Shown here: positions 1 through 50,614 of the stretch, piece after piece
Layout of the letters: each line of letters opens with the position of its first letter
How positions within the stretch are numbered: the stretch's first letter is position 1
DNA from: Siderastrea siderea
Taxonomy: Eukaryota; Cnidaria; Anthozoa; Scleractinia; Rhizangiidae
NCBI GenBank assembly: GCA_964030785.1
Contig: OZ034967.1
Coordinates: forward strand, 69,498,613-69,562,612
DNA length: 64,000 bases
Direction: 5' to 3'
Position numbers and translations under genes: made by a program
The notes under the pieces: generated by a model
The model's input: only the letters and a program-made list of their open reading frames with translations
Database searches by the model: none
Told to the model about the DNA's origin: nothing

Positions 1-365
1 TTCTACCACCAACGTCAGTTTGCCATGATAAATCCTCCAATCATTTAAGTTTGGTTTCTCCTCCATCCATTCTGGAAAATTTCAGAGCCATGTGAAACAG
101 CAGGCAGCTTACTATAACCTCATATCTGAAAATTGACGATAATAAATTACTGTTGCAAAGACCTGTAGGCCTTGCCACGTTATTGAAAGATCATCCCGTA
201 AATACAATTGTAATCTTCTAATGTCTTTTTTCTATTGATTTCCGAAGAAAACTCTGTCAAACGTCATAAAGCTACCGTTGTCCTTCATGGCAAGTTACAC
301 TTTTACCAATCGAAAATGACCTGTAGTTGATGGCTTTTCTAACATTTCTTATCTTATTAATTTAG
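1..365 (+). other. 3' part of intron preceding exon A0
   Basis: This matches the 3' end of the B-A introns downstream. It lacks the LTR-like insertion: the sequence reads GAAAGATCATCCCG straight through at about 187-200, the empty-site form. The matching exon B lies upstream of the window. Confidence 0.8.
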
Positions 366-3300
366 GAGTTTGTTGGAAACACAGACCCAGATATGGTTGT
401 TTATCATGACCTAGCACAAACAATCAGGGCACGTTACATCCGCTTTCGACCAACCGCTTGGCATGGTCACATATCAATGCGAGTGGAGCTCTACGGCTGC
501 AAAGGTACAAATGGTCTCTTGTTTCCAAAATTAATCTACACACACTTTTAAAGTGCCCTCTGAGAAAAAATGTGCTGTCTCTAATGCACTGTCATGGAGT
601 TCAATTTCATGCCTGCAGAAAACTTCCACCTATGAACAGTTTCATCCACTTATTATCAATCTATCTACATTTCACACTGCCAGGGTTAACCTTTACTCCA
701 CTAATAGCATTTTTTCTTTAATTCATCGTTCCTGCGATAATCCCCAGAGGTAAGGAACGGATGTGTCAGGCAAAATATCAAATGGAAAACGCGTTTTCTT
801 AAAAAGGCCTTTACACTGTATTTGTGCTAATATGCAGAATGCCAAGGAGCTCTGGGCGTGGAAAGCCGTACCATCTCTGACGGACAACTCAGTGCCTCTT
901 CACAATGGGATGCCAATCATGCCGCCATCCAGGGCAGACTACACTTTCAGCTAACTCGAAGCAAAGCAGGATCATGGTCAGCTCGCACCAATGACGTCAA
1001 TCAATGGCTGCAGATTGATCTGGGTAATCAGCACACCAAAGTAACAGGAGTGGCAACGCAAGGGAGAAATGCTGTCCAGCAATGGGTTACTAAGTACCAA
1101 CTGCAGTACAGTGACGACGGTGTGAACTTCCACTATTACAGGGAGCAGCCACAGAGCGGTCGCAAGGTGATAATAGCCTTCTTCGGAGGCAACTATCAGT
1201 AACGCCTTTATTTCCTCCTATATTAATTGCACATCCCTTTCTGGGTCAAACCAAATCAGAAATTTCACATTACCATTACAAGAAATCAACGAGCGTCGAA
1301 ATTAAAATGAACTCTCATGTTTGTCTACTCTTTCACCTTCATAGCTTTCTTTAGACGAAAAGCTTTCCTTGACATGTCATATTCAAGACAAAGTAGTGTG
1401 ATGTCTTTCTATTGTAAGCTGCAAGGGAACCAGGAAACTTTACGACAAGGAGTAATCCTTTGTTTGGCAACAATTGCGCCTGATCACAGATCAAAATTTA
1501 TTTGGTATTTAATCTAATGGGTTGGCTTATAGAAGCATTTGATTTAGAAACCAGCGAGGCATTGATTTTATGTGCTTTAGATACTTTCTATCGCTTTTCC
1601 TTTGTAATCTGCCACAGTATCCTTTGTTGCCAGTTCGCATAGTGTCAAATAAGAAGCAATATGTGTTAGCTGAAGGCTTGGACGTCGGGAAAAATCCAAA
1701 CGACTAAGGTCTAAATAGTTCAAGAATCTCTGTCACAATTAATGCCACGCACTTTTCTACTGCAAACGTCAGTTTGCAATGATAAATCCTCCAGTCATTT
1801 AAGTTTGGTTTCTCTTCCATCCATTCTGGAAAATTTCAGAGCCATGTGAACAGTAGGCAGCTTACTATAACCTGATATTTGAAAATTGACGATAATAAAT
1901 TACTGTTGCAAAGACCTGTAGGCCTTGCCACGTTATTGAAAGGTCACAGTGTCGGCAGTACCCCGAATGTTAGCTAATAACTATTATTAATCCTTTATGC
2001 ATGCTTCGTTTTAGTGACGTTTGTCCTCGTCAATTTAATTTATTACACGTTTCAAGTATACGCCCAAAACCGGATGTTAGTCAGTTGGCTTTGTTCGGGC
2101 AAACGATCAGTCGTAGTTTTTATAGTAGAGTTTGCCCTTAGTTTCGAAGTGAAGATTTGGTCAACAACTGACAAACGGGCCTGTTATGTAAGTGATTTGT
2201 TTCTTTCCTTATAGTTTTTAGGCTAGTTTTTAGTTTCTGATCGTATTTTCTCGCTAAGTTTCTCGAACAAGAGTTTGTACCTTCGACCACGTGGCAGGGC
2301 ATTCGATTGTTAAGTCGTGTTGTCTGCCAGTATGAGTTTCTTGTTATTTTGTTTGGTTTCGTTAGCTTTTAAGGCTTTATGGGTTGTCCTTAGTGAGCCC
2401 TTAGCCTTCATATTTGCTTTGATTACTTTTTGATTTTGTAAACTAGAATCGCTTTACGGTTTGCTACTTTTCTATGGAATGATCGGGATGTTAGCTTTAA
2501 TTTTTTAGGTTTTAGCTTAGTTTTTCCTTGTATTTGTTGATTTCAGTTTACGATAGGAACTTGGATTTGATGACAATAAACTTCGGATCAATTCAAGACT
2601 CTTGTCCGTAAAGTACTTCCCCGCATTGCGTATGCTTGGTGTGCCTTGACTCGAGTAAACATCAGTAGTCGTCGTTTTCGTCTTTATTCGAGCGCTGGCC
2701 GTTACAGTCATCCCGTAAATACAATTGTAATCTTCTAATGTCTTTTTTTCTATTGATTTCCGAAGAAAACTCAGTCAAACGTCATAAAGCAACCGTTGTC
2801 CTTCATGGCAAGTTACACTTTTACCAATCGAAAATGACCTCTAGTTGATGGCTTTTCTAACAATTTCTTATCTTATTAATTTAGGAGTTTGTTGGAAACA
2901 CAGACCCAGATATGGTTGTTTATCATGACCTAGCACAAACAATCAGGGCACGTTACATCCGCTTTCGACCAACCGCTTGGCATGGTCACATATCAATGCG
3001 AGTGGAGCTCTATGGCTGCAAAGGTACAAATGGTCTCTTGGTTCCAAAATTAATCTACACACACTTTTAAAGTGCCCTCTGAGAAAAAAATGTGCTGTCT
3101 CTAATGCACTGTCATGGAGTTCAATTTCATGCCTGCACAAAACTTCCACCTATGAACAGTTTCATCCACTTATTATCAATCTATCTACATTTCACACTGC
3201 CAGGGTTAACCTTTACTCCACTGATAACATTTTTTGTTTAATTCATGGATCCTGCGATAATGCACAGAGGTAAGGACTGGATGTGTCAGGCAAAATATCC

Positions 3301-6300
3301 AATGGAAAACGCGTTTTCTTAAAAAGGCCTTTAACACTGTATTTGTGCTAATATGCAGAATGCCAAGGAGCTCTGGGCGTGGAAAGCCGTGCCATCTCTG
3401 ACGGACAAATCAGTGCCTCTTCACAATGGGATGCCAATCATGCCGCCATCCAGGGCAGACTACACTTTCAGCTAACTCGAAGCAAAGCAGGATCATGGTC
3501 AGCTCGCACCAATGACGTCAATCAATGGCTGCAGATTGATCTGGGTAATCAGCACACCAAAGTAACAGGAGTGGCAACGCAAGGGAGAAATGCTGTCCAG
3601 CAATGGGTTACTAAGTACCAACTGCAGTACAGTGACGACGGTGTGAACTTCCACTATTACAGGGAGCAGCCACAGAGCGGTCGCAAGGTAATAACAGCCT
3701 ACTTCGGAGGCAACTATCAGTAACGCCTTTATTTCCTCCTATATTAATTGCACATCCCTTTCTGGGTCAAACCAAATCAGAAATTTCACATTACCATTAC
3801 ATGAAATCAACGAGCGTCGAAATTAAAATGAACTCTCATGTTTGTCTACTCTTTCACCTTCCTAGCTTTCTTTAGACGAAAAGCTTTCCTTCACATGTCA
3901 TATTCAAGACAAAGTAGTGTGATGTCTTTCTATTGTAAGCTGTAAGGGAACCAGGAAACTTTACGACAACGAGTAATCCTTTGTTTGGCAAACACTGCGC
4001 TTGACCACAGATCAAAATTTATTTGGTATTTGTTCTAATGGGTTGGCTTATAGAAGCATTTGATTTAGAAACCAGCGAGGCATTGATTTTATGTGCTTTA
4101 GATACTTTCTATCGCTTTTCCTTTGTAATCTGCCACAGTATCCTTTGTTGCCAGTTCGCATAGTGTCAAATAAGAAGCAATATGTGTTAGCTGAAGGCTT
4201 GGACGTCGGGAAAAATCCAAACGACTAAGGTCAAAATAGTTCAAGAATCTCTGTCACAATTAATGCCACGCGCTTTTCTACTGCAAACGTCAGTTTGCAA
4301 TGATAAATCCTCCAGTCATTTAAGTTTGGTTTCTCTTCCATCCATTCTGGAAAATTTCAGAGCCATGTGAACAGTAGGCAGCTTACTATAACCTGATATT
4401 TGAAAATTGACGATAATAAATTACTGTTGCAAAGACCTGTAGGCCTTGCCACGTTATTGAAAGGTCACAGTGTCGGCAGTACCCCGAATGTTAGCTAATA
4501 ACTATTATTAATCCTTTATGCATGCTTCGTTTTAGTGACGTTTGTCATCGTCAATTTAATTTATTACACGTTTCAAGTATACGCCCAAAACCGGATGTTA
4601 GTCAGTTGGCTTTGTTCGGGCAAACGATCAGTCGTAGTTTTTATAGTAGAGTTTGCCCTTAGTTTCGAAGTGAAGATTTGGTCAAGAACTGACAAACGGG
4701 CCTGTTATGTAAGTGATTTGTTTCTTTCCTTATAGTTTTTAGGCTAGTTTTTAGTTTCTGATCGTATTTTCTCGCTAAGTTTCTCGAACAAGAGTTTGTA
4801 CCTTCGACCACGTGGCAGGGCATTCGATTGTTAAGTCGTGTTGTCTGACAGTATGAGTTTCTTGTTATTTTGTTTTGTTTCGTTAGCTTTTAAGGCTTTA
4901 TGGGTTGTCCTTAGTGAGCCCTTAGCCTTCATATTTGCTTTGATTACTTTTTGATTTTGTAAACTAGAATCGCTTTACGGTTTGCTACTTTTCTATGGAA
5001 TGATCGGGATGTTAGCTTTAATTTTTTAGGTTTTAACTTAGTTTTTCCTTGTATTTGTTGATTTCAGTTTACGATAGGAACTTGGATTTGATGACAATAA
5101 ACTTCGGATCAATTCAAGACTCTTGTCCGTAAAGTACTTCCCCGCATTGCGTATGCTTGGTGTGCCTTGACTCGAGTAAACATCAGTAGTCGTCAATTTC
5201 GTGTTTATTCGAGCGCTGACCGTTACAGTCATCCCATAAATACAATTGTAATCTTCTAATGTCTTTTTTTCTATTGATTTCCAAAGAAAACTCAGTCACA
5301 CGTCATAAAGCAACCGTTGTCCTTCATGGCAAGTTACACTTTTACCAATCGAAAATGACCTCTAGTTGATGGCTTTTCTAACAATTTCTTATCTTATTAA
5401 TTTAGGAGTTTGTTGGAAACACAGACCCAGATACGGTTGTTTATCATGACCTAGCACAGACAATCAGGGCACGTTACATCCGCTTTCGACCAACCGCTTG
5501 GCATGGTCACATATCAATGCGAGTGGAGCTCTATGGCTGCAAAGGTACAAATGGTCTCTTGTTTCCAAAATTAATCTACACACACTTTTAAAGTGCCCTC
5601 TGAGAAAAAAATGTGCTGTCTCTAATGCACTGTCATAGAGTTCAATTTCATGCCTGCACAAAACTTCCACCTATGAACAGTTTCATCCACTTATTATCAA
5701 TCTATCTACATTTCACACTGCCAGGGTTAACCTTGACTCCACTGATAACATTTTTTGTTTAATTCATGGATCCTGCGATAATGCACAGAGGTAAGGACTG
5801 GATGTGTCAGGCAAAATATCCAATGGAAAACGCGTTTTCTTAAAAAGGCCTTTAACACTGTATTTGTGCTAATATGCAGAATGCCAAGGAGCTCTGGGCG
5901 TGGAAAGCCGTGCCATCTCTGACGGACAAATCAGTGCCTCTTCACAATGGGATGCCAATCATGCCGCCATCCAGGGCAGACTACACTTTCAGCTAACTCG
6001 AAGCAAAGCAGGATCATGGTCAGCTCGCACCAATGACGTCAATCAATGGCTGCAGATTGATCTGGGTAATCAGCACACCAAAGTAACAGGAGTGGCAACG
6101 CAAGGGAGAAATGCTGTCCAGCAATGGGTTACTAAGTACCAACTGCAGTACAGTGACGACGGTGTGAACTTCCACTATTACAGGGAGCAGCCACAGAGCG
6201 GTCGCAAGGTAATAACAGCCTACTTCGGAGGCAACTATCAGTAACGCCTTTATTTCCTCCTATATTAATTGCACATCCCTTTCTGGGTCAAACCAAATCA

Positions 6301-9300
6301 GAAATTTCACATTACCATTACATGAAATCAACGAGCGTCGAAATTAAAATGAACTCTCATGTTTGTCTACTCTTTCACCTTCCTAGCTTTCTTTAGACGA
6401 AAAGCTTTCCTTCACATGTCATATTCAAGACAAAGTAGTGTGATGTCTTTCTATTGTAAGCTGTAAGGGAACCAGGAAACTTTACGACAACGAGTAATCC
6501 TTTGTTTGGCAAACACTGCGCTTGACCACAGATCAAAATTTATTTGGTATTTGTTCTAATGGGTTGGCTTATAGAAGCATTTGATTTAGAAACCAGCGAG
6601 GCATTGATTTTATGTGCTTTAGATACTTTCTATCGCTTTTCCTTTGTAATCTGCCACAGTATCCTTTGTTGCCAGTTCGCATAGTGTCAAATAAGAAGCA
6701 ATATGTGTTAGCTGAAGGCTTGGACGTCGGGAAAAATCCAAACGACTAAGGTCAAAATAGTTCAAGAATCTCTGTCACAATTAATGCCACGCGCTTTTCT
6801 ACTGCAAACGTCAGTTTGCAATGATAAATCCTCCAGTCATTTAAGTTTGGTTTCTCTTCCATCCATTCTGGAAAATTTCAGAGCCATGTGAACAGTAGGC
6901 AGCTTACTATAACCTGATATTTGAAAATTGACGATAATAAATTACTGTTGCAAAGACCTGTAGGCCTTGCCACGTTATTGAAAGGTCACAGTGTCGGCAG
7001 TACCCCGAATGTTAGCTAATAACTATTATTAATCCTTTATGCATGCTTCGTTTTAGTGACGTTTGTCATCGTCAATTTAATTTATTACACGTTTCAAGTA
7101 TACGCCCAAAACCGGATGTTAGTCAGTTGGCTTTGTTCGGGCAAACGATCAGTCGTAGTTTTTATAGTAGAGTTTGCCCTTAGTTTCGAAGTGAAGATTT
7201 GGTCAAGAACTGACAAACGGGCCTGTTATGTAAGTGATTTGTTTCTTTCCTTATAGTTTTTAGGCTAGTTTTTAGTTTCTGATCGTATTTTCTCGCTAAG
7301 TTTCTCGAACAAGAGTTTGTACCTTCGACCACGTGGCAGGGCATTCGATTGTTAAGTCGTGTTGTCTGACAGTATGAGTTTCTTGTTATTTTGTTTTGTT
7401 TCGTTAGCTTTTAAGGCTTTATGGGTTGTCCTTAGTGAGCCCTTAGCCTTCATATTTGCTTTGATTACTTTTTGATTTTGTAAACTAGAATCGCTTTACG
7501 GTTTGCTACTTTTCTATGGAATGATCGGGATGTTAGCTTTAATTTTTTAGGTTTTAACTTAGTTTTTCCTTGTATTTGTTGATTTCAGTTTACGATAGGA
7601 ACTTGGATTTGATGACAATAAACTTCGGATCAATTCAAGACTCTTGTCCGTAAAGTACTTCCCCGCATTGCGTATGCTTGGTGTGCCTTGACTCGAGTAA
7701 ACATCAGTAGTCGTCAATTTCGTGTTTATTCGAGCGCTGACCGTTACAGTCATCCCATAAATACAATTGTAATCTTCTAATGTCTTTTTTTCTATTGATT
7801 TCCAAAGAAAACTCAGTCACACGTCATAAAGCAACCGTTGTCCTTCATGGCAAGTTACACTTTTACCAATCGAAAATGACCTCTAGTTGATGGCTTTTCT
7901 AACAATTTCTTATCTTATTAATTTAGGAGTTTGTTGGAAACACAGACCCAGATACGGTTGTTTATCATGACCTAGCACAGACAATCAGGGCACGTTACAT
8001 CCGCTTTCGACCAACCGCTTGGCATGGTCACATATCAATGCGAGTGGAGCTCTATGGCTGCAAAGGTACAAATGGTCTCTTGTTTCCAAAATTAATCTAC
8101 ACACACTTTTAAAGTGCCCTCTGAGAAAAAAATGTGCTGTCTCTAATGCACTGTCATAGAGTTCAATTTCATGCCTGCACAAAACTTCCACCTATGAACA
8201 GTTTCATCCACTTATTATCAATCTATCTACATTTCACACTGCCAGGGTTAACCTTGACTCCACTGATAACATTTTTTGTTTAATTCATGGATCCTGCGAT
8301 AATGCACAGAGGTAAGGACTGGATGTGTCAGGCAAAATATCCAATGGAAAACGCGTTTTCTTAAAAAGGCCTTTAACACTGTATTTGTGCTAATATGCAG
8401 AATGCCAAGGAGCTCTGGGCGTGGAAAGCCGTGCCATCTCTGACGGACAAATCAGTGCCTCTTCACAATGGGATGCCAATCATGCCGCCATCCAGGGCAG
8501 ACTACACTTTCAGCTAACTCGAAGCAAAGCAGGATCATGGTCAGCTCGCACCAATGACGTCAATCAATGGCTGCAGATTGATCTGGGTAATCAGCACACC
8601 AAAGTAACAGGAGTGGCAACGCAAGGGAGAAATGCTGTCCAGCAATGGGTTACTAAGTACCAACTGCAGTACAGTGACGACGGTGTGAACTTCCACTATT
8701 ACAGGGAGCAGCCACAGAGCGGTCGCAAGGTAATAACAGCCTACTTCGGAGGCAACTATCAGTAACGCCTTTATTTCCTCCTATATTAATTGCACATCCC
8801 TTTCTGGGTCAAACCAAATCAGAAATTTCACATTACCATTACATGAAATCAACGAGCGTCGAAATTAAAATGAACTCTCATGTTTGTCTACTCTTTCACC
8901 TTCCTAGCTTTCTTTAGACGAAAAGCTTTCCTTCACATGTCATATTCAAGACAAAGTAGTGTGATGTCTTTCTATTGTAAGCTGTAAGGGAACCAGGAAA
9001 CTTTACGACAACGAGTAATCCTTTGTTTGGCAAACACTGCGCTTGACCACAGATCAAAATTTATTTGGTATTTGTTCTAATGGGTTGGCTTATAGAAGCA
9101 TTTGATTTAGAAACCAGCGAGGCATTGATTTTATGTGCTTTAGATACTTTCTATCGCTTTTCCTTTGTAATCTGCCACAGTATCCTTTGTTGCCAGTTCG
9201 CATAGTGTCAAATAAGAAGCAATATGTGTTAGCTGAAGGCTTGGACGTCGGGAAAAATCCAAACGACTAAGGTCAAAATAGTTCAAGAATCTCTGTCACA

Positions 9301-33300: not shown

Positions 33301-36300
33301 ATTAATCTACACACACTTTTAAAGTGCCCTCTGAGAAAAAAATGTGCTGTCTCTAATGCACTGTCATAGAGTTCAATTTCATGCCTGCACAAAACTTCCA
33401 CCTATGAACAGTTTCATCCACTTATTATCAATCTATCTACATTTCACACTGCCAGGGTTAACCTTGACTCCACTGATAACATTTTTTGTTTAATTCATGG
33501 ATCCTGCGATAATGCACAGAGGTAAGGAGTGGATGTGTCAGGCAAAATATCCAATGGAAAACGCGTTTTCTTAAAAAGGCCTTTAACACTGTATTTGTGC
33601 TAATATGCAGAATGCCAAGGAGCTCTGGGCGTGGAAAGCCGTGCCATCTCTGACGGACAAATCAGTGCCTCTTCACAATGGGATGCCAATCATGCCGCCA
33701 TCCAGGGCAGACTACACTTTCAGCTAACTCGAAGCAAAGCAGGATCATGGTCAGCTCGCACCAATGACGTCAATCAATGGCTGCAGATTGATCTGGGTAA
33801 TCAGCACACCAAAGTAACAGGAGTGGCAACGCAAGGGAGAAATGCTGTCCAGCAATGGGTTACTAAGTACCAACTGCAGTACAGTGACGACGGTGTGAAC
33901 TTCCACTATTACAGGGAGCAGCCACAGAGCGGTCGCAAGGTAATAACAGCCTACTTCGGAGGCAACTATCAGTAACGCCTTTATTTCCTCCTATATTAAT
34001 TGCACATCCCTTTCTGGGTCAAACCAAATCAGAAATTTCACATTACCATTACATGAAATCAACGAGCGTCGAAATTAAAATGAACTCTCATGTTTGTCTA
34101 CTCTTTCACCTTCCTAGCTTTCTTTAGACGAAAAGCTTTCCTTCACATGTCATATTCAAGACAGAGTAGTGTGATGTCTTTCTATTGTAAGCTGTAAGGG
34201 AACCAGGAAACTTTACGACAACGAGTAATCCTTTGTTTGGCAAACACTGCGCTTGACCACAGATCAAAATTTATTTGGTATTTGTTCTAATGGGTTGGCT
34301 TATAGAAGCATTTGATTTAGAAACCAGCGAGGCATTGATTTTATGTGCTTTAGATACTTTCTATCGCTTTTCCTTTGTAATCTGCCACAGTATCCTTTGT
34401 TGCCAGTTCGCATAGTGTCAAATAAGAAGCAATATGTGTTAGCTGAAGGCTTGGACGTCGGGAAAAATCCAAACGACTAAGGTCAAAATAGTTCAAGAAT
34501 CTCTGTCACAATTAATGCCACGCGCTTTTCTACTGCAAACGTCAGTTTGCAATGATAAATCCTCCAGTCATTTAAGTTTGGTTTCTCTTCCATCCATTCC
34601 GGAAAATTTCAGAGCCATGTGAACAGTAGGCAGCTTACTATAACCTGATATTTGAAAATTGACGATAATAAATTACTGTTGCAAAGACCTGTAGGCCTTG
34701 CCACGTTATTGAAAGGTCACAGTGTCGGCAGTACCCCGAATGTTAGCTAATAACTATTATTAATCCTTTATGCATGCTTCGTTTTAGTGACGTTTGTCAT
34801 CGTCAATTTAATTTATTACACGTTTCAAGTATACGCCCAAAACCGGATGTTAGTCAGTTGGCTTTGTTCGGGCAAACGATCAGTCGTAGTTTTTATAGTA
34901 GAGTTTGCCCTTAGTTTCGAAGTGAAGATTTGGTCAAGAACTGACAAACGGGCCTGTTATGTAAGTGATTTGTTTCTTTCCTTATAGTTTTTAGGCTAGT
35001 TTTTAGTTTCTGATCGTATTTTCTCGCTAAGTTTCTCGAACAAGAGTTTGTACCTTCGACCACGTGGCAGGGCATTCGATTGTTAAGTCGTGTTGTCTGA
35101 CAGTATGAGTTTCTTGTTATTTTGTTTTGTTTCGTTAGCTTTTAAGGCTTTATGGGTTGTCCTTAGTGAGCCCTTAGCCTTCATATTTGCTTTGATTACT
35201 TTTTGATTTTGTAAACTAGAATCGCTTTACGGTTTGCTACTTTTCTATGGAATGATCGGGATGTTAGCTTTAATTTTTTAGGTTTTAACTTAGTTTTTCC
35301 TTGTATTTGTCGATTTCAGTTTACGATAGGAACTTGGATTTGATGACAATAAACTTCGGATCAATTCAAGACTCTTGTCCGTAAAGTACTTCCCCGCATT
35401 GCGTATGCTTGGTGTGCCTTGACTCGAGTAAACATCAGTAGTCGTCAATTTCGTGTTTATTCGAGCGCTGACCGTTACAGTCATCCCATAAATACAATTG
35501 TAATCTTCTAATGTCTTTTTTTCTATTGATTTCCAAAGAAAACTCAGTCACACGTCATAAAGCAACCGTTGTCCTTCATGGCAAGTTACACTTTTACCAA
35601 TCGAAAATGACCTCTAGTTGATGGCTTTTCTAACAATTTCTTATCTTATTAATTTAGGAGTTTGTTGGAAACACAGACCCAGATACGGTTGTTTATCATG
35701 ACCTAGCACAGACAATCAGGGCACGTTACATCCGCTTTCGACCAACCGCTTGGCATGGTCACATATCAATGCGAGTGGAGCTCTATGGCTGCAAAGGTAC
35801 AAATGGTCTCTTGTTTCCAAAATTAATCTACACACACTTTTAAAGTGCCCTCTGAGAAAAAAATGTGCTGTCTCTAATGCACTGTCATAGAGTTCAATTT
35901 CATGCCTGCACAAAACTTCCACCTATGAACAGTTTCATCCACTTATTATCAATCTATCTACATTTCACACTGCCAGGGTTAACCTTGACTCCACTGATAA
36001 CATTTTTTGTTTAATTCATGGATCCTGCGATAATGCACAGAGGTAAGGACTGGATGTGTCAGGCAAAATATCCAATGGAAAACGCGTTTTCTTAAAAAGG
36101 CCTTTAACACTGTATTTGTGCTAATATGCAGAATGCCAAGGAGCTCTGGGCGTGGAAAGCCGTGCCATCTCTGACGGACAAATCAGTGCCTCTTCACAAT
36201 GGGATGCCAATCATGCCGCCATCCAGGGCAGACTACACTTTCAGCTAACTCGAAGCAAAGCAGGATCATGGTCAGCTCGCACCAATGACGTCAATCAGTG

Positions 36301-39300
36301 GCTGCAGATTGATCTGGGTAATCAGCACACCAAAGTAACAGGAGTGGCAACGCAAGGGAGAAATGCTGTCCAGCAATGGGTTACTAAGTACCAACTGCAG
36401 TACAGTGACGACGGTGTGAACTTCCACTATTACAGGGAGCAGCCACAGAGCGGTCGCAAGGTAATAACAGCCTACTTCGGAGGCAACTATCAGTAACGCC
36501 TTTATTTCCTCCTATATTAATTGCACATCCCTTTCTGGGTCAAACCAAATCAGAAATTTCACATTACCATTACATGAAATCAACGAGCGTCGAAATTAAA
36601 ATGAACTCTCATGTTTGTCTACTCTTTCACCTTCCTAGCTTTCTTTAGACGAAAAGCTTTCCTTCACATGTCATATTCAAGACAAAGTAGTGTGATGTCT
36701 TTCTATTGTAAGCTGTAAGGGAACCAGGAAACTTTACGACAACGAGTAATCCTTTGTTTGGCAAACACTGCGCTTGACCACAGATCAAAATTTATTTGGT
36801 ATTTGTTCTAATGGGTTGGCTTATAGAAGCATTTGATTTAGAAACCAGCGAGGCATTGATTTTATGTGCTTTAGATACTTTCTATCGCTTTTCCTTTGTA
36901 ATCTGCCACAGTATCCTTTGTTGCCAGTTCGCATAGTGTCAAATAAGAAGCAATATGTGTTAGCTGAAGGCTTGGACGTCGGGAAAAATCCAAACGACTA
37001 AGGTCAAAATAGTTCAAGAATCTCTGTCACAATTAATGCCACGCGCTTTTCTACTGCAAACGTCAGTTTGCAATGATAAATCCTCCAGTCATTTAAGTTT
37101 GGTTTCTCTTCCATCCATTCTGGAAAATTTCAGAGCCATGTGAACAGTAGGCAGCTTACTATAACCTGATATTTGAAAATTGACGATAATAAATTACTGT
37201 TGCAAAGACCTGTAGGCCTTGCCACGTTATTGAAAGGTCACAGTGTCGGCAGTACCCCGAATGTTAGCTAATAACTATTATTAATCCTTTATGCATGCTT
37301 CGTTTTAGTGACGTTTGTCATCGTCAATTTAATTTATTACACGTTTCAAGTATACGCCCAAAACCGGATGTTAGTCAGTTGGCTTTGTTCGGGCAAACGA
37401 TCAGTCGTAGTTTTTATAGTAGAGTTTGCCCTTAGTTTCGAAGTGAAGATTTGGTCAAGAACTGACAAACGGGCCTGTTATGTAAGTGATTTGTTTCTTT
37501 CCTTATAGTTTTTAGGCTAGTTTTTAGTTTCTGATCGTATTTTCTCGCTAAGTTTCTCGAACAAGAGTTTGTACCTTCGACCACGTGGCAGGGCATTCGA
37601 TTGTTAAGTCGTGTTGTCTGACAGTATGAGTTTCTTGTTATTTTGTTTTGTTTCGTTAGCTTTTAAGGCTTTATGGGTTGTCCTTAGTGAGCCCTTAGCC
37701 TTCATATTTGCTTTGATTACTTTTTGATTTTGTAAACTAGAATCGCTTTACGGTTTGCTACTTTTCTATGGAATGATCGGGATGTTAGCTTTAATTTTTT
37801 AGGTTTTAACTTAGTTTTTCCTTGTATTTGTCGATTTCAGTTTACGATAGGAACTTGGATTTGATGACAATAAACTTCGGATCAATTCAAGACTCTTGTC
37901 CGTAAAGTACTTCCCCGCATTGCGTATGCTTGGTGTGCCTTGACTCGAGTAAACATCAGTAGTCGTCAATTTCGTGTTTATTCGAGCGCTGACCGTTACA
38001 GTCATCCCATAAATACAATTGTAATCTTCTAATGTCTTTTTTTCTATTGATTTCCAAAGAAAACTCAGTCACACGTCATAAAGCAACCGTTGTCCTTCAT
38101 GGCAAGTTACACTTTTACCAATCGAAAATGACCTCTAGTTGATGGCTTTTCTAACAATTTCTTATCTTATTAATTTAGGAGTTTGTTGGAAACACAGACC
38201 CAGATACGGTTGTTTATCATGACCTAGCACAGACAATCAGGGCACGTTACATCCGCTTTCGACCAACCGCTTGGCATGGTCACATATCAATGCGAGTGGA
38301 GCTCTATGGCTGCAAAGGTACAAATGGTCTCTTGTTTCCAAAATTAATCTACACACACTTTTAAAGTGCCCTCTGAGAAAAAAATGTGCTGTCTCTAATG
38401 CACTGTCATAGAGTTCAATTTCATGCCTGCACAAAACTTCCACCTATGAACAGTTTCATCCACTTATTATCAATCTATCTACATTTCACACTGCCAGGGT
38501 TAACCTTGACTCCACTGATAACATTTTTTGTTTAATTCATGGATCCTGCGATAATGCACAGAGGTAAGGAGTGGATGTGTCAGGCAAAATATCCAATGGA
38601 AAACGCGTTTTCTTAAAAAGGCCTTTAACACTGTATTTGTGCTAATATGCAGAATGCCAAGGAGCTCTGGGCGTGGAAAGCCGTGCCATCTCTGACGGAC
38701 AAATCAGTGCCTCTTCACAATGGGATGCCAATCATGCCGCCATCCAGGGCAGACTACACTTTCAGCTAACTCGAAGCAAAGCAGGATCATGGTCAGCTCG
38801 CACCAATGACGTCAATCAATGGCTGCAGATTGATCTGGGTAATCAGCACACCAAAGTAACAGGAGTGGCAACGCAAGGGAGAAATGCTGTCCAGCAATGG
38901 GTTACTAAGTACCAACTGCAGTACAGTGACGACGGTGTGAACTTCCACTATTACAGGGAGCAGCCACAGAGCGGTCGCAAGGTAATAACAGCCTACTTCG
39001 GAGGCAACTATCAGTAACGCCTTTATTTCCTCCTATATTAATTGCACATCCCTTTCTGGGTCAAACCAAATCAGAAATTTCACATTACCATTACATGAAA
39101 TCAACGAGCGTCGAAATTAAAATGAACTCTCATGTTTGTCTACTCTTTCACCTTCCTAGCTTTCTTTAGACGAAAAGCTTTCCTTCACATGTCATATTCA
39201 AGACAAAGTAGTGTGATGTCTTTCTATTGTAAGCTGTAAGGGAACCAGGAAACTTTACGACAACGAGTAATCCTTTGTTTGGCAAACACTGCGCTTGACC

Positions 39301-42300
39301 ACAGATCAAAATTTATTTGGTATTTGTTCTAATGGGTTGGCTTATAGAAGCATTTGATTTAGAAACCAGCGAGGCATTGATTTTATGTGCTTTAGATACT
39401 TTCTATCGCTTTTCCTTTGTAATCTGCCACAGTATCCTTTGTTGCCAGTTCGCATAGTGTCAAATAAGAAGCAATATGTGTTAGCTGAAGGCTTGGACGT
39501 CGGGAAAAATCCAAACGACTAAGGTCAAAATAGTTCAAGAATCTCTGTCACAATTAATGCCACGCGCTTTTCTACTGCAAACGTCAGTTTGCAATGATAA
39601 ATCCTCCAGTCATTTAAGTTTGGTTTCTCTTCCATCCATTCTGGAAAATTTCAGAGCCATGTGAACAGTAGGCAGCTTACTATAACCTGATATTTGAAAA
39701 TTGACGATAATAAATTACTGTTGCAAAGACCTGTAGGCCTTGCCACGTTATTGAAAGGTCACAGTGTCGGCAGTACCCCGAATGTTAGCTAATAACTATT
39801 ATTAATCCTTTATGCATGCTTCGTTTTAGTGACGTTTGTCATCGTCAATTTAATTTATTACACGTTTCAAGTATACGCCCAAAACCGGATGTTAGTCAGT
39901 TGGCTTTGTTCGGGCAAACGATCAGTCGTAGTTTTTATAGTAGAGTTTGCCCTTAGTTTCGAAGTGAAGATTTGGTCAAGAACTGACAAACGGGCCTGTT
40001 ATGTAAGTGATTTGTTTCTTTCCTTATAGTTTTTAGGCTAGTTTTTAGTTTCTGATCGTATTTTCTCGCTAAGTTTCTCGAACAAGAGTTTGTACCTTCG
40101 ACCACGTGGCAGGGCATTCGATTGTTAAGTCGTGTTGTCTGACAGTATGAGTTTCTTGTTATTTTGTTTTGTTTCGTTAGCTTTTAAGGCTTTATGGGTT
40201 GTCCTTAGTGAGCCCTTAGCCTTCATATTTGCTTTGATTACTTTTTGATTTTGTAAACTAGAATCGCTTTACGGTTTGCTACTTTTCTATGGAATGATCG
40301 GGATGTTAGCTTTAATTTTTTAGGTTTTAACTTAGTTTTTCCTTGTATTTGTTGATTTCAGTTTACGATAGGAACTTGGATTTGATGACAATAAACTTCG
40401 GATCAATTCAAGACTCTTGTCCGTAAAGTACTTCCCCGCATTGCGTATGCTTGGTGTGCCTTGACTCGAGTAAACATCAGTAGTCGTCAATTTCGTGTTT
40501 ATTCGAGCGCTGACCGTTACAGTCATCCCATAAATACAATTGTAATCTTCTAATGTCTTTTTTTCTATTGATTTCCAAAGAAAACTCAGTCACACGTCAT
40601 AAAGCAACCGTTGTCCTTCATGGCAAGTTACACTTTTACCAATCGAAAATGACCTCTAGTTGATGGCTTTTCTAACAATTTCTTATCTTATTAATTTAGG
40701 AGTTTGTTGGAAACACAGACCCAGATACGGTTGTTTATCATGACCTAGCACAGACAATCAGGGCACGTTACATCCGCTTTCGACCAACCGCTTGGCATGG
40801 TCACATATCAATGCGAGTGGAGCTCTATGGCTGCAAAGGTACAAATGGTCTCTTGTTTCCAAAATTAATCTACACACACTTTTAAAGTGCCCTCTGAGAA
40901 AAAAATGTGCTGTCTCTAATGCACTGTCATAGAGTTCAATTTCATGCCTGCACAAAACTTCCACCTATGAACAGTTTCATCCACTTATTATCAATCTATC
41001 TACATTTCACACTGCCAGGGTTAACCTTTACTCCACTGATAACATTTTTTGTTTAATTCATGGATCCTGCGATAATGCACAGAGGTAAGGACTGGATGTG
41101 TCAGGCAAAATATCCAATGGAAAACGCGTTTTCTTAAAAAGGCCTTTAACACTGTATTTGTGCTAATATGCAGAATGCCAAGGAGCTCTGGGCGTGGAAA
41201 GCCGTGCCATCTCTGACGGACAAATCAGTGCCTCTTCACAATGGGATGCCAATCATGCCGCCATCCAGGGCAGACTACACTTTCACCTAACTCGAAGCAA
41301 AGCAGGATCATGGTCAGCTCGCACCAATGACGTCAATCAATGGCTGCAGATTGATCTGGGTAATCAGCACACCAAAGTAACAGGAGTGGCAACGCAAGGG
41401 AGAAATGCTGTCCAGCAATGGGTTACTAAGTACCAACTGCAGTACAGTGACGACGGTGTGAACTTCCACTATTACAGGGAGCAGCCACAGAGCGGTCGCA
41501 AGGTAATAATAACCTACTTCGGAGGCAACTATCAGTAACGCCTTTATTTCCTCCTTTATTAATTGCACATACCTTCTCAGGGTCAAACCAAATCAGAAAT
41601 TCCACATTAACATTACAGGAAATCAACGAGTGTCGAAATTAAAATGAACTCTCACGTTTCTCTACTCTCTCGCCTTCCTAGCTTTCCTTAGATGAAAACG
41701 CTTTGCTTGACATGTGATATTCAAGACAAAGTAGTGTGATGTCTTTCTATCGTCAACTGTAAGGGAACCAGGAAGCTTTACGACAAGGAGTAATCCTTTG
41801 TTTGGCAAAATTGCGCCTGATCACACATCAAAATTTATTTGGTATTTGATCTCATGGGTTGGCTTATAGAAGCATTTTATTTAGAAACATGCGAGGCATT
41901 GATTTTATGCGCTTTAGATATTTCCATCGCTTTTCCTTTGTAATCTGCCACTGTATCCTTAGTTGGCAGTTCGCATGGTGTCAAATAATTAACAATTATC
42001 CTGCGAAATCGCGCGGAATATCACCTGATACTTAGCCGACGAGGCCGTAGGCCGAGTTGGCTAAATCAGGGGATATTCCGCAAGATTGAGCAGGGTAATT
42101 GTTTTATTATTCAACAAATTCCCATCGACTACCATTTTCAGAACAAGAAAAACTACGGCTCTATGATGAATATGCTAAAGCTAGCAACACATAAGCTTAA
42201 GCTTAACAAAAATCAAAACAGACCTTCAAGAAATCGAAGTAGTTGTTTACTACCGTTCACTCAAAGACTTATTTACAATCTCATGTTTGGAAATGACAAG

Positions 42301-44897
42301 ACAAAGTAAAAACAAATATTGCTACCTTACCGAGAATAAGTCCTCTTCCTGTGAATTAAAATCTTTTCAACTTTAGTCTTCACAACTTTCCGTGAGCAAT
42401 TGTGCTGCTTCGTTCGCAATAGCATTTTCTTGGTTGAGTTCTCACTATGAAAATTCCAAATCAACCTCTGGATATCTTTGTGAGCTGAAGCAAATACTTG
42501 TTGACTTTCTGAGAGCATTTAATCGTGGAAAGTTTCTTCCAGGGAGTTAAAATTTCCGGAGAAGACTGCTAAAACTCCCTCGCTTTTCAAAATGGCCGCC
42601 AAACAAGCAATGAAAGAAAATCTGCAGTGCACTTCCAAATATGGTCATTTACGTATATCGCAGGATATCTGTCATGTAGGATGACAGATATTGAGGGCTT
42701 CCTTACCATATATGGGCATATTGACAATTTGTTGAATAATAAGAAGCAATATCTGTTAGCTGAAGGCCTGGACGTCGGGAGAAATCCAAACTACTTAGGT
42801 CAAAACAGTTCAAGAATCTCTGTCACAATTAATGCCACGCACTTTTCTACTACCAAATCAGTTTCCAATGATAAATCCTGCAATCATTTAAGTTTGGTTT
42901 CTCCTCCATCCATTCTGGAAAATTTCAGAGCCATGTGAAACAGCAGGCAGCTTACTATAACCTCATATTTGAAAATTGACGATAATAAATTACTGTTGCA
43001 AAGACCTGTAGGCCTTGCCACGTTATTGAAAGATCATCCCCTAAATACAATTGTAATCTTCTAATGTCTTTTTTTCTATTGATTTCCGAAGAAAACTCAG
43101 TCAAACGTCATAAAGCAACCGTTGTCCTTCATGGCAAGTTACACTTTTACCAATCGAAAATGACCTCTAGTTGATGGCTTTTCTAACAATTTCTTATCTT
43201 ATTAATTTAGGAGTTTGTTGGAAACACAGATCCAGATACGGTTGTTTATCATGACCTAGCACAAACAATCAGGGCACGTTACATCCGCTTTCGACCAACC
43301 GCTTGGCATGGTCACATATCAATGCGAGTGGAGCTCTATGGCTGCAAAGGTACAAATGGTCTCTTGTTTCCAAAATTAATCTACACACACTTTTAAAGTG
43401 CCCTCTGAGAAAAAAATGTGCTGTCTCTAATGCACTGTCATAGAGTTCAATTTCATGCCTGCACAAAACTTCCACCTATGAACAGTTTCATCCACTTATT
43501 ATCAATCTATCTACATTTCACACTGCCAGGGTTAACCTTGACTCCACTGATAACATTTTTTGTTTAATTCATGGATCCTGCGATAATGCACAGAGGTAAG
43601 GAGTGGATGTGTCAGGCAAAATATCCAATGGAAAACGCGTTTTCTTAAAAAGGCCTTTAACACTGTATTTGTGCTAATATGCAGAATGCCAAGGAGCTCT
43701 GGGCGTGGAAAGCCGTGCCATCTCTGACGGACAAATCAGTGCCTCTTCACAATGGGATGCCAATCATGCCGCCATCCAGGGCAGACTACACTTTCAGCTA
43801 ACTCGAAGCAAAGCAGGATCATGGTCAGCTCGCACCAATGACGTCAATCAATGGCTGCGGATTGATCTGGGTAATCAGCACACCAAAGTAACAGGAGTGG
43901 CAACGCAAGGGAGAAATGCTGTCCAGCAATGGGTTACTAAGTACCAACTGCAGTACAGTGACGACGGTGTGAACTTCCACTATTACAGGGAGCAGCCACA
44001 GAGCGGTCGCAAGGTGATATTCAAGACAGAGTAGTGTGATGTCTTTCTATCGTAAGCTGTAAGGGAACCAGGAACCTTTACGACAAGGAGTAATCCTTTG
44101 TCTGGCAAAAATTGCGGCTGATCACAGATCAAAATTTATTTGGTATTTGATCTCATGGGTTGGCTTGTAGAAGCATTTGACTTAGAAATCAGCGAGGCAT
44201 TGATTTTATGTGCTTTATATACTTTCCATCGCTTTTCCTTTCTAATCTGCCACAGTATCCTTTGTTGCCAGTTCGCATAGTGTCAAATAGGAGGCAATAT
44301 CTGTTAGCTGACGGCCTGGACGTCGGGAAAAATCCAAACTCCTAAGGTCAAAACAGTTCAAGAATCTCTGTCACAATTAATGCCACGCACTTTTCTACTG
44401 CAAACGTCAGTTTGCAATGATAAATCCTCCAGTCATTTCAGTTTGGTTTCTCTTCCATCCGTTCTGGAAAATTTCAGAGCCATGTGAAACAGCATGGAGC
44501 TTACTATAACCTGATATTTGAAAATTGATGATAATAAATTACTGCTGCAAAGGCCTGTAGGCCTTGCCACGTTATTGAAAGGTCAACCTGTAAATACAAT
44601 TGTAATCTTCTAATGTCTTTTTTCTATTGATTTCCGAAGAAATCTCAGTCAAATGTCATAAAGCAACCGTTGTCCTTCATGGCAAGTTACACTTTTACCA
44701 ATCGAAAATGACCTCTAGTTGAAGGCTTTTCTAACAATTTCTTATCTTATTAATTTAGGAGTTTGTTGGAAACACAGACCCAGATACGGTTGTTTATCAT
44801 GACCTAGCACAAACAATCAGGGCACGTTACATCCGCTTTCGACCAACCGCTTGGCATGGTCACATATCAATGCGAGTGGAGCTCTATGGCTGCAAAG
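1..44897 (+). CDS. Giant tandem F5/8 type C (discoidin) domain gene, internal part
   Basis: Thirty-seven exons (18 B, 19 A) join into a continuous reading frame of repeated 156-residue F5/8 type C modules. In each module Cys2 and Cys155 sit at the ends, as in the terminal disulphide of discoidin domains. WLQIDLG lies at 57-63, VTGVATQGR at 69-77, WVTKYQLQYSDDG at 83-95, and RARYIRFRPTAWHGHISMRVELYGC at 131-155 is the typical C-terminal strand block. Donors are AAG|GTAATA or AAG|GTGATA after exon B and AAAG|GTACAA after exon A. Acceptors are TTAATTTAG|G before A and CTAATATGCAG|A before B. Modules join directly (..YGCK-ECQG..) with no linker or other domain between them. The family is usually extracellular and binds lipids, glycans or matrix; the ligand here is unknown. 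The gene starts upstream of the window and its last exon is not certain. No exon has a stop or frameshift. Splicing is inferred from sequence only. Confidence 0.85.
366..504 (+). CDS. Unit 0: second half of an F5/8C domain (exon A0)
   Basis: A 139-nt exon opening GAG TTT GTT (Glu-Phe-Val) after TTTAG and ending TGC AAA G before GTACAA. It encodes residues 111-156 of a module whose first half is off-window. Residue 120 is Met (ATG), as in unit 1; all later units have Thr (ACG). Confidence 0.85.
838..3023 (+). CDS. Unit 1 F5/8C domain (exons 838-1166, 2885-3023)
   Basis: This is the most diverged unit of the 2521-bp array. Its domain has Thr12 and Leu18 where the others have Ala12 and Ile18, and Met120 where units 2-18 have Thr. 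The exon B donor is GTGATA rather than GTAATA. Its introns carry many more substitutions relative to unit 2 than its exons do (2 in 329 nt for exon B). It may mark the 5' edge of the homogenised block. Confidence 0.85.
1947..2706 (+). mobile_element. Solo-LTR-like insertion, unit 1 copy
   Basis: 760 bp absent from the equivalent introns of units 0, 17 and 18. GTCA flanks it on both sides (1943-1946 and 2707-2710), while the empty site has a single TCA/ATCA, consistent with a 4-bp target duplication. The inserted sequence begins CAGTGTCGGCAG and ends CCGTTACA, giving imperfect inverted ends (TGTCGGCAG against TGTAACGGTCAG). AATAAA occurs near 2574 and a TATA-like TTTTATAG near 2119. There is no long ORF. 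A solo LTR is the best fit, but the CAG before TG is awkward for one, so a non-autonomous DNA transposon is possible. Confidence 0.6.
3359..5544 (+). CDS. Unit 2 F5/8C domain (exons 3359-3687, 5406-5544)
   Basis: First unit with the consensus protein (Ala12, Ile18, Thr120). Donor is GTAATA. The LTR-like copy in its intron has T in TTGATTTCAG near 5060, as in units 1, 3, 9 and 16. Confidence 0.85.
5880..8065 (+). CDS. Unit 3 F5/8C domain (exons 5880-6208, 7927-8065)
   Basis: Consensus protein. Exon and intron are nearly indistinguishable from unit 2. Confidence 0.85.
8401..10586 (+). CDS. Unit 4 F5/8C domain (exons 8401-8729, 10448-10586)
   Basis: Consensus protein. Private intron variant GCGCTCTTC at about 9313 (GCGCTTTTC elsewhere). 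First unit with C in TCGATTTCAG near 10100. Confidence 0.85.
10922..13107 (+). CDS. Unit 5 F5/8C domain (exons 10922-11250, 12969-13107)
   Basis: Consensus protein. I noticed no private variant. Confidence 0.85.
13443..15628 (+). CDS. Unit 6 F5/8C domain (exons 13443-13771, 15490-15628)
   Basis: Consensus protein. Gln56 is CAG rather than CAA (near 13609), shared with units 8 and 15. Private LTR-like variant GGCACGGCATT near 14900. Confidence 0.85.
15964..18149 (+). CDS. Unit 7 F5/8C domain (exons 15964-16292, 18011-18149)
   Basis: Consensus protein. The LTR-like copy reads GAAGACTTGG near 17280, shared with units 9 and 10 (GAAGATTTGG elsewhere). Confidence 0.85.
18485..20670 (+). CDS. Unit 8 F5/8C domain (exons 18485-18813, 20532-20670)
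   Basis: Consensus protein. Gln56 is CAG (near 18651), as in units 6 and 15, although the intervening unit 7 has CAA. Confidence 0.85.
21006..23191 (+). CDS. Unit 9 F5/8C domain (exons 21006-21334, 23053-23191)
   Basis: Consensus protein. The LTR-like copy is the most distinctive of units 2-16: GACTTGG at about 22323, TTGATTTCAG near 22704, and a private cluster AACCATCACTAGTCG and TTTTGTG at about 22826-22851. Confidence 0.85.
23527..25712 (+). CDS. Unit 10 F5/8C domain (exons 23527-23855, 25574-25712)
   Basis: Consensus protein. Shares the GACTTGG variant (about 24844) with units 7 and 9. Confidence 0.85.
26048..28233 (+). CDS. Unit 11 F5/8C domain (exons 26048-26376, 28095-28233)
   Basis: Consensus protein. 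The intron after exon A has private GGACTGAATG at about 28486. Confidence 0.85.
28569..30754 (+). CDS. Unit 12 F5/8C domain (exons 28569-28897, 30616-30754)
   Basis: Consensus protein. The intron after exon A reads GGAGTGG (about 31006) instead of GGACTGG. Confidence 0.85.
31090..33275 (+). CDS. Unit 13 F5/8C domain (exons 31090-31418, 33137-33275)
   Basis: Consensus protein. Intron reads GACAGAGTAG near 31640, shared with units 14 and 18. Private CTCGCAAAG in the LTR-like copy near 32502. GGAGTGG follows exon A. Confidence 0.85.
33611..35796 (+). CDS. Unit 14 F5/8C domain (exons 33611-33939, 35658-35796)
   Basis: Consensus protein. Shares GACAGAGTAG (about 34162) with unit 13. Private CATTCCGG near 34596. 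Confidence 0.85.
36132..38317 (+). CDS. Unit 15 F5/8C domain (exons 36132-36460, 38179-38317)
   Basis: Consensus protein. Gln56 is CAG (near 36298), as in units 6 and 8. GGAGTGG follows exon A. Confidence 0.85.
38653..40838 (+). CDS. Unit 16 F5/8C domain (exons 38653-38981, 40700-40838)
   Basis: Consensus protein. Last unit with the LTR-like insertion, which has returned to TTGATTTCAG near 40352. The following intron has CCTTTACTCC (about 41032), the form seen in units 0 and 1, not CCTTGACTCC. Confidence 0.85.
41174..43349 (+). CDS. Unit 17 F5/8C domain (exons 41174-41502, 43211-43349)
   Basis: One residue change from consensus, Gln38 to His (CAC). The B-A intron (41503-43210, 1708 bp) is diverged. 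It lacks the 760-bp LTR-like element but has an unrelated insertion of about 750 bp at 41989-42740, so its length is similar only by coincidence. The frame stays open across both exons. Confidence 0.85.
41989..42104. repeat. Foldback palindrome
   Basis: The left arm begins AACAATTATCCTGCGAAATC and includes GCGGAATATC. The right arm carries GGATATTCCGC and ends GGGTAATTGTT. The arms are about 50 nt and pair around a GAGGCCGTAGGCC centre. Confidence 0.65.
41989..42740. mobile_element. Composite insertion in the unit 17 intron
   Basis: About 750 bp interrupt the array sequence TCAAATAAGAAGCAAT; ATAA is present on both sides (41985-41988 and 42739-42742). The left part (41989-42104) is a near-perfect palindrome. 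The right part (about 42105-42740) is bounded by inverted copies of ATTATTCAACAAATT. No recognisable protein is encoded; the 63-codon minus-strand ORF at 42327-42518 resembles nothing I know. Probably a non-autonomous DNA element with a foldback element at its end. Confidence 0.55.
43685..44897 (+). CDS. Unit 18 F5/8C domain (exons 43685-44013, 44759-44897)
   Basis: Last recognisable module. Gln59 in the WLQIDLG motif is Arg (CGG). The intron is only 745 bp: no LTR-like element, and a deletion joins the donor (AAG|GTGATATTCAAGAC) directly to sequence that lies several hundred bases into the other introns. Exon A and its GTACAA donor are intact, so the gene should continue to at least one further phase-1 exon. 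Confidence 0.83.
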
Positions 44898-46407
44898 GTA
44901 CAAATGGTCTCTTGTTTCCAAAATTACTTTACGCACACTTTTTAAGAGCACTGTTATGGAGATCAATTTAATGCCTTGAAAAAAATTCCGCCTATGAACA
45001 GTTTATCTACTTATTATCAATCTTTCTACATTTCGCACTGCCAGGGTTAACCTTTACTCCACTGATAGCGTTTTTTTTTATCACGATTTTTGCAATAATG
45101 CACAGAAGTAAGGGTTAAATCACTGAATACTAGTTCGATACTTTGATAGTTTGCTTCATGCCAGGCTAAGGAGTATAATATAGGTGTCTCAAACGTGTGT
45201 GGTTAGCGGGTAGACTTTTGGAGTTGGTCAACTTTAAATTGAGTACGAAAAAAAACTTGCTAAATATGGGACATTTTTAGGTCCAAAGCTTTGCTGTGTA
45301 GTTGATGCGATCACCAGGCTTCCTAGTAAACGAGAAATTCGTTCATAATGAAGGTTACAATGCATTATGTGTCATCCACGTTAACCAGGTTTGTACATTT
45401 TATAAAGCATTTCGAAACGTGTTGGTTTAAGGGCATTGCGAATGAGTCGCCACCTTGTTTTTTAATCAACTTATTTTTTTTTATCATAACGGAGCTCCAC
45501 CGCGGGTCGAAGGCCCGCTGAGCGGAGCACTATAATGATAGAAAATATATATCAATGCTGGTCGATTTTGATAATCATGACCTCACGTGACCGTACGACG
45601 TACCTTATACCATACTTCATGTAAAATGCTCGAAGTGTCTCAATACTCGCGGATTTACATATTGGTGGAGAATGGCGGGCATCCCTTGAACTAGCAGTTT
45701 AGTCTGAACCATCTTTTTGAGGTGTTAAGAAAAAGGATTTACTGTCATGCATATTTTACCAAATTTACGATGTTTTCTTACTGCTCTTACTGCTCTTACT
45801 GTTTTAATGACTGCTCCCCACACGATATTACAGAATGGACTCTCACTTCTCAGCATGCTCGAGTTTCATGACGGTAACTTGACATACTGGGAATGAAGAA
45901 GAACCTTATAGCTCTATCTGAAAAGGAAAAGACCTGAAAGCTTGCTTTAAACTCGACGAAGCATATAGAAGAAAATGGAGAGCTTGAAGGGAAGAAATCC
46001 TCGTTCGAGGACACCCCTGTTATTTCTTAGGAGATCTGGAAAGCGACCAATTGCAAAGGACCACTCGAGCAGTAGTCTTTCGTTTAGATTTTAAGTACTT
46101 CTCAGTTTACTTCAACGGTGAAGTAAATTCCTAAGCTTCAGCCCCACACCTGACTGCAGGTCTCCTTCGCCGGCTGAAGTAAATTACATATTTGATTCTG
46201 GATTTTCGTCGTAAGAAATGTTTAGTTGAGCGAGTTTACATGTTTACGATAATTTTCTTGACATGTTTGAGAAACTTGGAAACAAGCATTTGTTCAAAAT
46301 AGCAGTGAAATTAACTCCCGCCTCCAGCTGAATTGCTTGCGAGTAACTTTTTCTGGAGGCGAAAATAAAATTTTTAAAGATTTAATTTTGGTTTTCCAGG
46401 CAAATAA
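44898..46407. other. Downstream of last F5/8C exon; no clear exon
   Basis: Array similarity fades after about 45110. A GC-rich hairpin with GCGGG/GCCCGC arms flanked by GGAGCTCC and GCGGAGCAC lies at 45487-45530. A 9-nt CTGCTCTTA repeat is near 45780. Inverted pairs CTTCAGCC/GGCTGAAG (about 46136-46180) and CGCCTCCAG/CTGGAGGCG (46319-46362) follow. TTTTCCAG at 46392-46399 is followed by GC AAA TAA, which would close the phase-1 frame of unit 18 after two residues and so is a possible, unproven, terminal exon. Confidence 0.4.
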
Positions 46408-46984: not shown

Positions 46985-47489
46985 TCTTTGTCCCGTCAAA
47001 AAAAAGGGGTAACCAGAACTATTGCTTCAACGTCCGTGCAAGGTGTTACGCGGGACGTACTTTAAATAAGCAACCAGCTTTTCTACAGCGTTGCGTTTTT
47101 GTTAAAATGTGGTCTTTTTCAGTTGTTAAATTCGTTTATCAAAACGTGTGACAGGTCCTTATCTGTTTGTTTTCTTTTTACAGGTGCCGCCTTTTAACTG
47201 CCATCACTTCATTGGGTCTCTACAGAAAGACCCGTTAGCTTAACTCCCTTTAAGCATTAAAAGAAGTTAAAATTTTAAAAGAATATGTGTTATCTGTGGG
47301 TCGAGTTGTGATACTCGTATTACAGTTGATCCACGTCACACGAGAACGGAAACTCAAAAATTCAAAACAACGTGACGAGTCACGTTCTCCATATTTGGGC
47401 ATTCTTCTCGTCTATCTTGGGATTCAGAGGGGGATTTCGAAAATCGAAAAGGTATTCCGAATCTCTCGCGGATTTTTCGAAATGTTCAG
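46985..47489. other. No supported gene
   Basis: Contains a GTTTTCTTTTTACAG acceptor-like tract at about 47170-47184. The open frame from 47287 to the paired-like segment has no recognisable domain of its own. I see no other feature. Confidence 0.4.
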
Positions 47490-50312: not shown

Positions 50313-50614
50313 GTTCGCAGCATTTGGTAGCGGTCCCGGCGCCAAACATAGTAGAGCTAGTGCCTTGTCCACAACCATGGTTTTTGCGGCGGTGCGAATA
50401 CTTTCCAAGTAAAAACACTCGTGTTAATCCGCGTTCGAGTCGCGATCGATAAACAGCTGGCATTTTGTCACGTGAAAAGACATAAGTGCAAAAATCAACA
50501 CATACTTTGCAGGCGTTGCTCTTGTAGTACAATTGAAATGGCTGATTTCTAATTTTTTTTAACACCTTCTACGACCATATCCACCATATTTAACGACTTC
50601 AATGAGAGTACTTT

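Follow-up and report, generated by a model that had tools for sequence, protein, structure and literature searches.

The 64,000-nucleotide stretch of DNA analyzed here (the window; C2:69498613-69562612, within an assembly of 831 Mb in 402 contigs) is best explained overall, and with moderate confidence, as the 3' portion (two thirds) of a single gene that would encode a giant secreted, multivalent matrix or adhesive protein. The window contains 18 copies of a 329-bp exon (exon A) and 19 copies of a 139-bp exon (exon B), all on the + strand and all 37 with AG/GT borders (Table 1). These comprise 18 complete F5/8C (discoidin) modules of two exons each and one leading exon B, which belongs to module 9 and whose exon A starts at -915, upstream of the window. 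The exon phases run 1-0-1 (entry to exon A, A|B border, exit from exon B). Each pair is thus a symmetrical cassette of 468 nt (156 codons), and the gain, loss, or skipping of entire modules leaves the reading frame intact. When spliced, the window frame is open across the 37 exons and encodes 2854 aa with no stops. This upholds the claims of the initial annotation that more than 2,800 residues are open and in phase and that adjacent modules join as Cys155-Lys-Glu-Cys2. Its count of 18 near-identical modules in tandem holds for complete modules in the window, but the array starts upstream and totals 27. Pfam was run on the module and on four downstream frames; the module matched the PF00754 profile at 109 bits (cut-off 28.2), and its best PDB matches were factor V-like and VIII C domains and neuropilin b1/b2. 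A search of the window against Rfam returned no matches.

Table 1. Coordinates of module exons, intron inserts, and the proposed terminal exon in the window.
Feature	Position	Strand	Remark
Exon B, module 9	366..504	+	exon A upstream of window
Exon A, module 10	838..1166	+	
Dispersed repeat, ~762 bp, solo-LTR-like	1944..2705	+	ends approximate; A-to-B intron, module 10
Exon B, module 10	2885..3023	+	
Exon A, module 11	3359..3687	+	
Exon B, module 11	5406..5544	+	
Exon A, module 12	5880..6208	+	
Exon B, module 12	7927..8065	+	
Exon A, module 13	8401..8729	+	
Exon B, module 13	10448..10586	+	
Exon A, module 14	10922..11250	+	
Exon B, module 14	12969..13107	+	
Exon A, module 15	13443..13771	+	
Exon B, module 15	15490..15628	+	
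Exon A, module 16	15964..16292	+	
Exon B, module 16	18011..18149	+	
Exon A, module 17	18485..18813	+	
Exon B, module 17	20532..20670	+	
Exon A, module 18	21006..21334	+	
Exon B, module 18	23053..23191	+	
Exon A, module 19	23527..23855	+	
Exon B, module 19	25574..25712	+	
Exon A, module 20	26048..26376	+	
Exon B, module 20	28095..28233	+	
Exon A, module 21	28569..28897	+	
Exon B, module 21	30616..30754	+	
Exon A, module 22	31090..31418	+	
Exon B, module 22	33137..33275	+	
Exon A, module 23	33611..33939	+	
Exon B, module 23	35658..35796	+	
Exon A, module 24	36132..36460	+	
Exon B, module 24	38179..38317	+	
Exon A, module 25	38653..38981	+	
Exon B, module 25	40700..40838	+	
Exon A, module 26	41174..41502	+	
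Different insert, ~754 bp	41984..42737	+	ends approximate; A-to-B intron, module 26
Exon B, module 26	43211..43349	+	
Exon A, module 27 (last)	43685..44013	+	
Exon B, module 27 (last)	44759..44897	+	
Proposed terminal exon, coding part	47184..47197	+	acceptor ACAG; putative G-A-A-F-stop after last module

The same assembly supplied flanks of 150 kb (upstream) and 50 kb (downstream). Nine more modules were identified upstream of the window, for a total of 27 over 88.8 kb (C2:69456993-69545809), as counted in the assembly. The modules are spaced by 333-335 bp and comprise 27 in-phase exon pairs, and AG/GT borders were found on 54 of 54 module exons; a 19-kb intron interrupts module 1. The spliced model is 4238 aa long (481 kDa, pI 9.3, 54 Cys, no stops) and consists of a leader, 27 modules with two-residue linkers, and a short tail. 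No second domain, anchor, hydrophobic segment after the leader, or N-glycosylation sequon was detected in these 4238 aa. Seventeen of the 27 modules are identical, and mean module identity is 99.0%. The flanking Cys pair (Cys2, Cys155) is present in 26 modules, with module 2 having lost the closing Cys (C155S).

The initial annotation proposed that a signal peptide be sought upstream, and one such exon was found at -41619, 41.6 kb upstream of the window. It is 67 nt long, reads MISFAILPLLLLSVAKGERKNH, and has a strong donor (ATG|GTAAGT) in phase 1, the right phase for module 1. It was the only usable signal-peptide exon in a scan from -50000 to 47200 that was filtered for a hydrophobic start and a phase-1 donor. 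Other matches in the scan were repeated hydrophobic ATG frames inside an intron insert; these are followed by exon B, whose phase (0) does not fit, and splicing would have to bypass it. These results bear on the highly improbable alternative that each unit constitutes a small gene of its own. Passages of PMC10236652 describe tandem duplicates as abundant in coral genomes and chimeric predictions as a known annotation error, which would favor that alternative. However, the filtered scan gave no per-unit signal peptide usable without exon skipping, and the outer borders of the exon pairs are in phase 1, meaning that a lone unit would begin and end mid-codon.

A neighboring array of 13 modules, ~80% identical, lies 98 kb upstream at C2:69359.3-69383.7 kb (about -139.3 to -114.9 kb). 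Its own signal-peptide exon, at -139292, reads MISLAFLPLLLICVTTVQSKKL and is of the same exon type, and the array has the same layout of signal peptide and exon pairs as the window gene. A degraded half-module was observed in the first intron of both arrays (-41361..-41278 and -139058..-138907), possibly a relic older than the split of the two arrays.

The 3' flank of the neighboring array also bears on where the window gene ends. A block at 47129-47243 that starts with an acceptor is conserved in that flank, where three copies align. The block reads G-A-A-F-stop here and G-A-A-V-stop in two of the neighbor-flank copies, with the third lacking an early stop. The downstream search for a last exon that the initial annotation advised thus yielded a candidate; however, one neighbor copy has no stop and a second frame through 47129-47243 is also conserved, making the terminal exon the least certain part of the model. 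Read-through of the last exon B, which would add 24 residues before a stop at 44971, is a possible but less favored C-terminus; the exon at 47184 is preferred because the read-through of the neighbor is unlike that of the last exon B. When 208 homologues were compared with 44898-64000 by tblastn, no credible further domain exon emerged; the best match (E 0.029) fell at a reverse-transcriptase stretch.

Several other features were observed 3' of the array. A 219-bp sequence is duplicated in tandem (1.9 copies, 100% matches) at 46562-46982, a frame at 47254-47697 has weak, below-cut-off Pfam matches to PAX and Sleeping Beauty transposase helix-turn-helix domains, and a reverse transcriptase remnant (RVT_1, 67.5 bits) lies at 54147-54752. 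Directly 3' of the window, positions 64001-66500 are 2500 N in the sequence examined, possibly a gap.

We compared divergent units (modules 1-10, 26, and 27; n = 12) with the core unit, leaving out the insert described below. Of 5615 exon sites, 45 differed, as did 679 of 15126 intron sites, such that exons vary 5.6 times less than introns; the compared sites are not independent, and it is therefore the size of this ratio that counts and not a P value. When all 27 units were compared with the core, 48 of 12635 exon sites and 688 of 34491 intron sites differed. Distinct variants inside the array comprised 12 synonymous and 15 non-synonymous changes and no stop (pN/pS 0.36), and the consensus modules of this array and the neighboring array differ with a dS of 0.57 and a dN of 0.12 (dN/dS 0.21). 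None of the 27 modules here contains a stop, whereas 3 of the 13 modules in the neighboring array do (modules 2, 11, and 13; pN/pS 0.49), for which reason the neighboring array looks broken. The lost Cys of module 2 and the 19-kb intron in the window gene, on the other hand, weigh against its being a working gene.

The stops in an array of the same layout, together with the relic half-modules in both first introns, indicate that decay does occur among these arrays. They lend some weight to the possibility that the window holds a silent or decaying array, that is, a macrosatellite whose exons were coding only in the past. We nonetheless consider this improbable given 27 modules free of stops, the retention of every splice border, the lower divergence of exons, and the dN/dS between arrays. 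Recent homogenization discounts the near-identical units as evidence of constraint, but not the divergent ones. One constrained secreted gene would fit these data better than either many small genes or a silent repeat. Collectively, the signal-peptide exon, the in-phase pairs, the proposed terminal exon, the exon constraint, and a neighbor with the same layout support the earlier suggestion of a polypeptide made only of F5/8C modules and make one secreted gene very probable. From the DNA, we infer that this gene would be expressed as a single mRNA ending in the proposed terminal exon, with a product that is secreted.

Units in the window are exactly 2521 bp long in 16 instances, followed by one of 2511 bp and a shortened last unit. 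Among the 15 core units starting 3359 to 38653, differences amount to 0-8 nt (mean 2.9 of 2521). The unit at 838 is 35-40 nt away from this core, and the introns of the last two units are unlike those of the others. The A-to-B intron contains an insert of ~762 bp in units 4, 6, 7, and 10-25 (19 of 27); along the 16 units that start at 838 to 38653, its period is 2521 bp. This insert is a dispersed repeat that looks like a solo LTR: among 42 matches listed (40 of 96 candidates scored), 22 were elsewhere, with 18 whole copies and two halves in unit 4 at this array. Units without the insert are mostly ~1753 bp long and alternate with insert-bearing units, and variants are common to non-adjacent units. 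This pattern fits repeated unequal recombination or conversion after insertion. The dispersed repeat may thus have inserted in one intron, after which unequal recombination between units would have amplified and homogenized the array, recently. Transposon-helped duplication by non-allelic recombination has been proposed for coral gene clusters in passages of PMC12314368.

Units of equal length with so few differences might also arise if the near-identical block were partly an assembly artefact and the true module number were other than 27, a possibility that we regard as unlikely. While two pairs of the 15 core units are identical, these units nevertheless represent 13 distinct sequences, and insert-bearing and insert-free units alternate along the array. 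Moreover, a genome search with exon A (150 of 908 candidates scored) placed each of the 27 matches of 97-100% identity at this locus; the runners-up among those scored reached 79-80%, leaving no copy above 80% outside the locus.

Other arrays were identified in the genome. The third, at C6:40701175-40743709, consists of 15 copies each of exon A and exon B (77-83% identity), with matched exons free of stops. A terminal-exon scan of this array found none, and a signal-peptide scan gave two weak candidates only, one of them 9.4 kb upstream of the first module; both results count against the model proposed here. Many further F5/8C exon clusters were observed on C4, C7, C11, C12, C14, and others, with at least 164 matches (150 of 1692 candidates scored).

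To place the array among those of other corals, two protein searches were conducted (8000 candidates scored in each), and the best 120 of each yielded 208 different homologues, in which modules were counted with a profile built for this analysis. A FastTree reconstruction included 172 distinct modules from 17 arrays, with 27 of 169 inner branches starred and several long branches flagged. The 11 distinct modules of the window array formed one clade (SH-like 99), as did the 8 distinct modules of the neighboring array (95); the rest of the tree is weak. Array labels required 30 changes on the tree vs 132 in shuffles, although arrays from Porites lutea, Porites harrisoni, and one from Montipora foliosa were not separated. 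This suggests that coral lineages may amplify and homogenize such arrays separately.

The initial annotation had considered a homogeneous array of this length out of the ordinary, which is not so for the group: among the 208 homologues, tandem runs of 7-29 F5/8C modules occur in predicted proteins of corals, some equally homogeneous. The predicted protein LOC144659348 of Oculina patagonica (P0121) has 26 unbroken modules and 64% identity over the whole query, but its mean module identity is 91%, its period is 157 residues rather than 156, and the model lacks a leader and opens with a module. The predicted proteins Acropora muricata P0001 (10 modules at 99% mean identity) and A. millepora LOC114977630 (P0013; 8 modules at 100%) each have a hydrophobic leader, as judged by eye, but carry EGF-like repeats after the modules and are 63% identical to the window modules. 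The predicted Porites evermanni P0122 has 29 F5/8C modules in a row in 4476 aa, but at a mean identity of 48%. The window gene is the most uniform among arrays of more than 10 modules in the 208 homologues; it is neither the longest nor the sole uniform array. No paper on long tandem F5/8C coral proteins was found among the titles and abstracts listed from the open-access literature, and the word discoidin does not occur in the main text of PMC10236652. Long F5/8C arrays in corals are thus known from predictions, and the window gene is a new example.

Among matches listed, the closest characterized relative is sea-urchin nectin (Paracentrotus lividus; P0052; 40% identity), described in passages of PMC10057474 as an adhesive protein of six discoidin modules. 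Like the window gene model, nectin has a signal peptide followed by tandem discoidin modules only. The segments TQGRN..QWVT.Y, W.AR.ND..QW, and HISMR are common to nectin and the coral arrays and differ from those of neuropilin b1; based on known structures, we take these segments to be binding loops. Differences from nectin, which weigh against the analogy, include its glycosylation (there is no sequon in the window gene model), its predicted negative charge in seawater (vs a pI of 9.3 here), and its LDT motif (vs no LDT or LDV in 4238 aa). The six modules of nectin are also 47-55% identical (passages of PMC10057474), vs 27 at 99.0% here.

Neuropilin b1/b2 and factor V/VIII C1/C2 resemble the array in that the same domain occurs in tandem pairs with short linkers. 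Nevertheless, these are two copies in mixed-domain proteins with CUB, MAM, or A domains as partners, and no partner domain of this type was found in the gene model. Further, neuropilin b1 has a longer segment after TQG than the coral arrays and presumably differs at its pocket residues. From the kinship with nectin, we infer that multivalent adhesion is the best reading of function; the narrower proposition of a soluble multivalent matrix or adhesive protein, taken by itself, we regard as evenly balanced. The product may work as nectin does, with many copies of one binding site holding surfaces or glycans, in which case we propose that avidity would follow copy number.

The main rival on function, which we consider rather unlikely, is that this giant secreted product serves chiefly as a multivalent immune lectin or microbe-binding opsonin, not in adhesion or matrix. 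The second Pfam match of the module, PF22633, is a galactose-binding relative, which is consistent with such a role. Amplified coral families, mostly receptors, cell adhesion, and extracellular signaling, also include some innate immunity according to passages of PMC10236652. Yet the modules have been homogenized rather than diversified, arguably the opposite of what a protein facing varied targets would need, and their conserved segments match nectin. The F-type lectin motif, which we take to be HX26RXDX4(R/K), had no matches in the 4238-aa model.

Six Pocillopora verrucosa models that are named isoforms of one gene (P0124, P0004-P0008) have 11-13 modules. Models P0124, P0004-P0008, and P0125-P0129 of this species were observed to differ by whole 155-aa modules, some of them hybrid. 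Hybrid modules in two of the six models switch between residues 69-109 and 106-130, respectively; a shared switch point would be 106-109, which spans the A|B border found here (108/109), as judged from the predicted protein models. This suggests that cassettes may be lost in frame from Pocillopora mRNA. We tentatively propose that the window gene is a coding macrosatellite for an adhesive protein, with module number varying between haplotypes and individuals and between mRNAs, and avidity being a rapidly evolving quantitative trait. Haplotype variation would arise via unequal recombination at the intronic repeat and mRNA variation via in-frame skipping of module pairs, while the module itself would be held constant by homogenization.

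The gene model, which extends from the signal peptide to the proposed stop, is among the longest and most uniform F5/8C arrays compared, and amplification at this locus is tied to an intronic repeat. In Acropora millepora, a set of genes that is co-regulated at a late stage of larval competence includes one for a secreted discoidin protein, as described in a passage of PMC5755313. If the product is a nectin-like adhesive, the array would represent a natural experiment in binding strength versus copy number and would be a candidate for a component of coral matrix or mucus or for a role in larval attachment.
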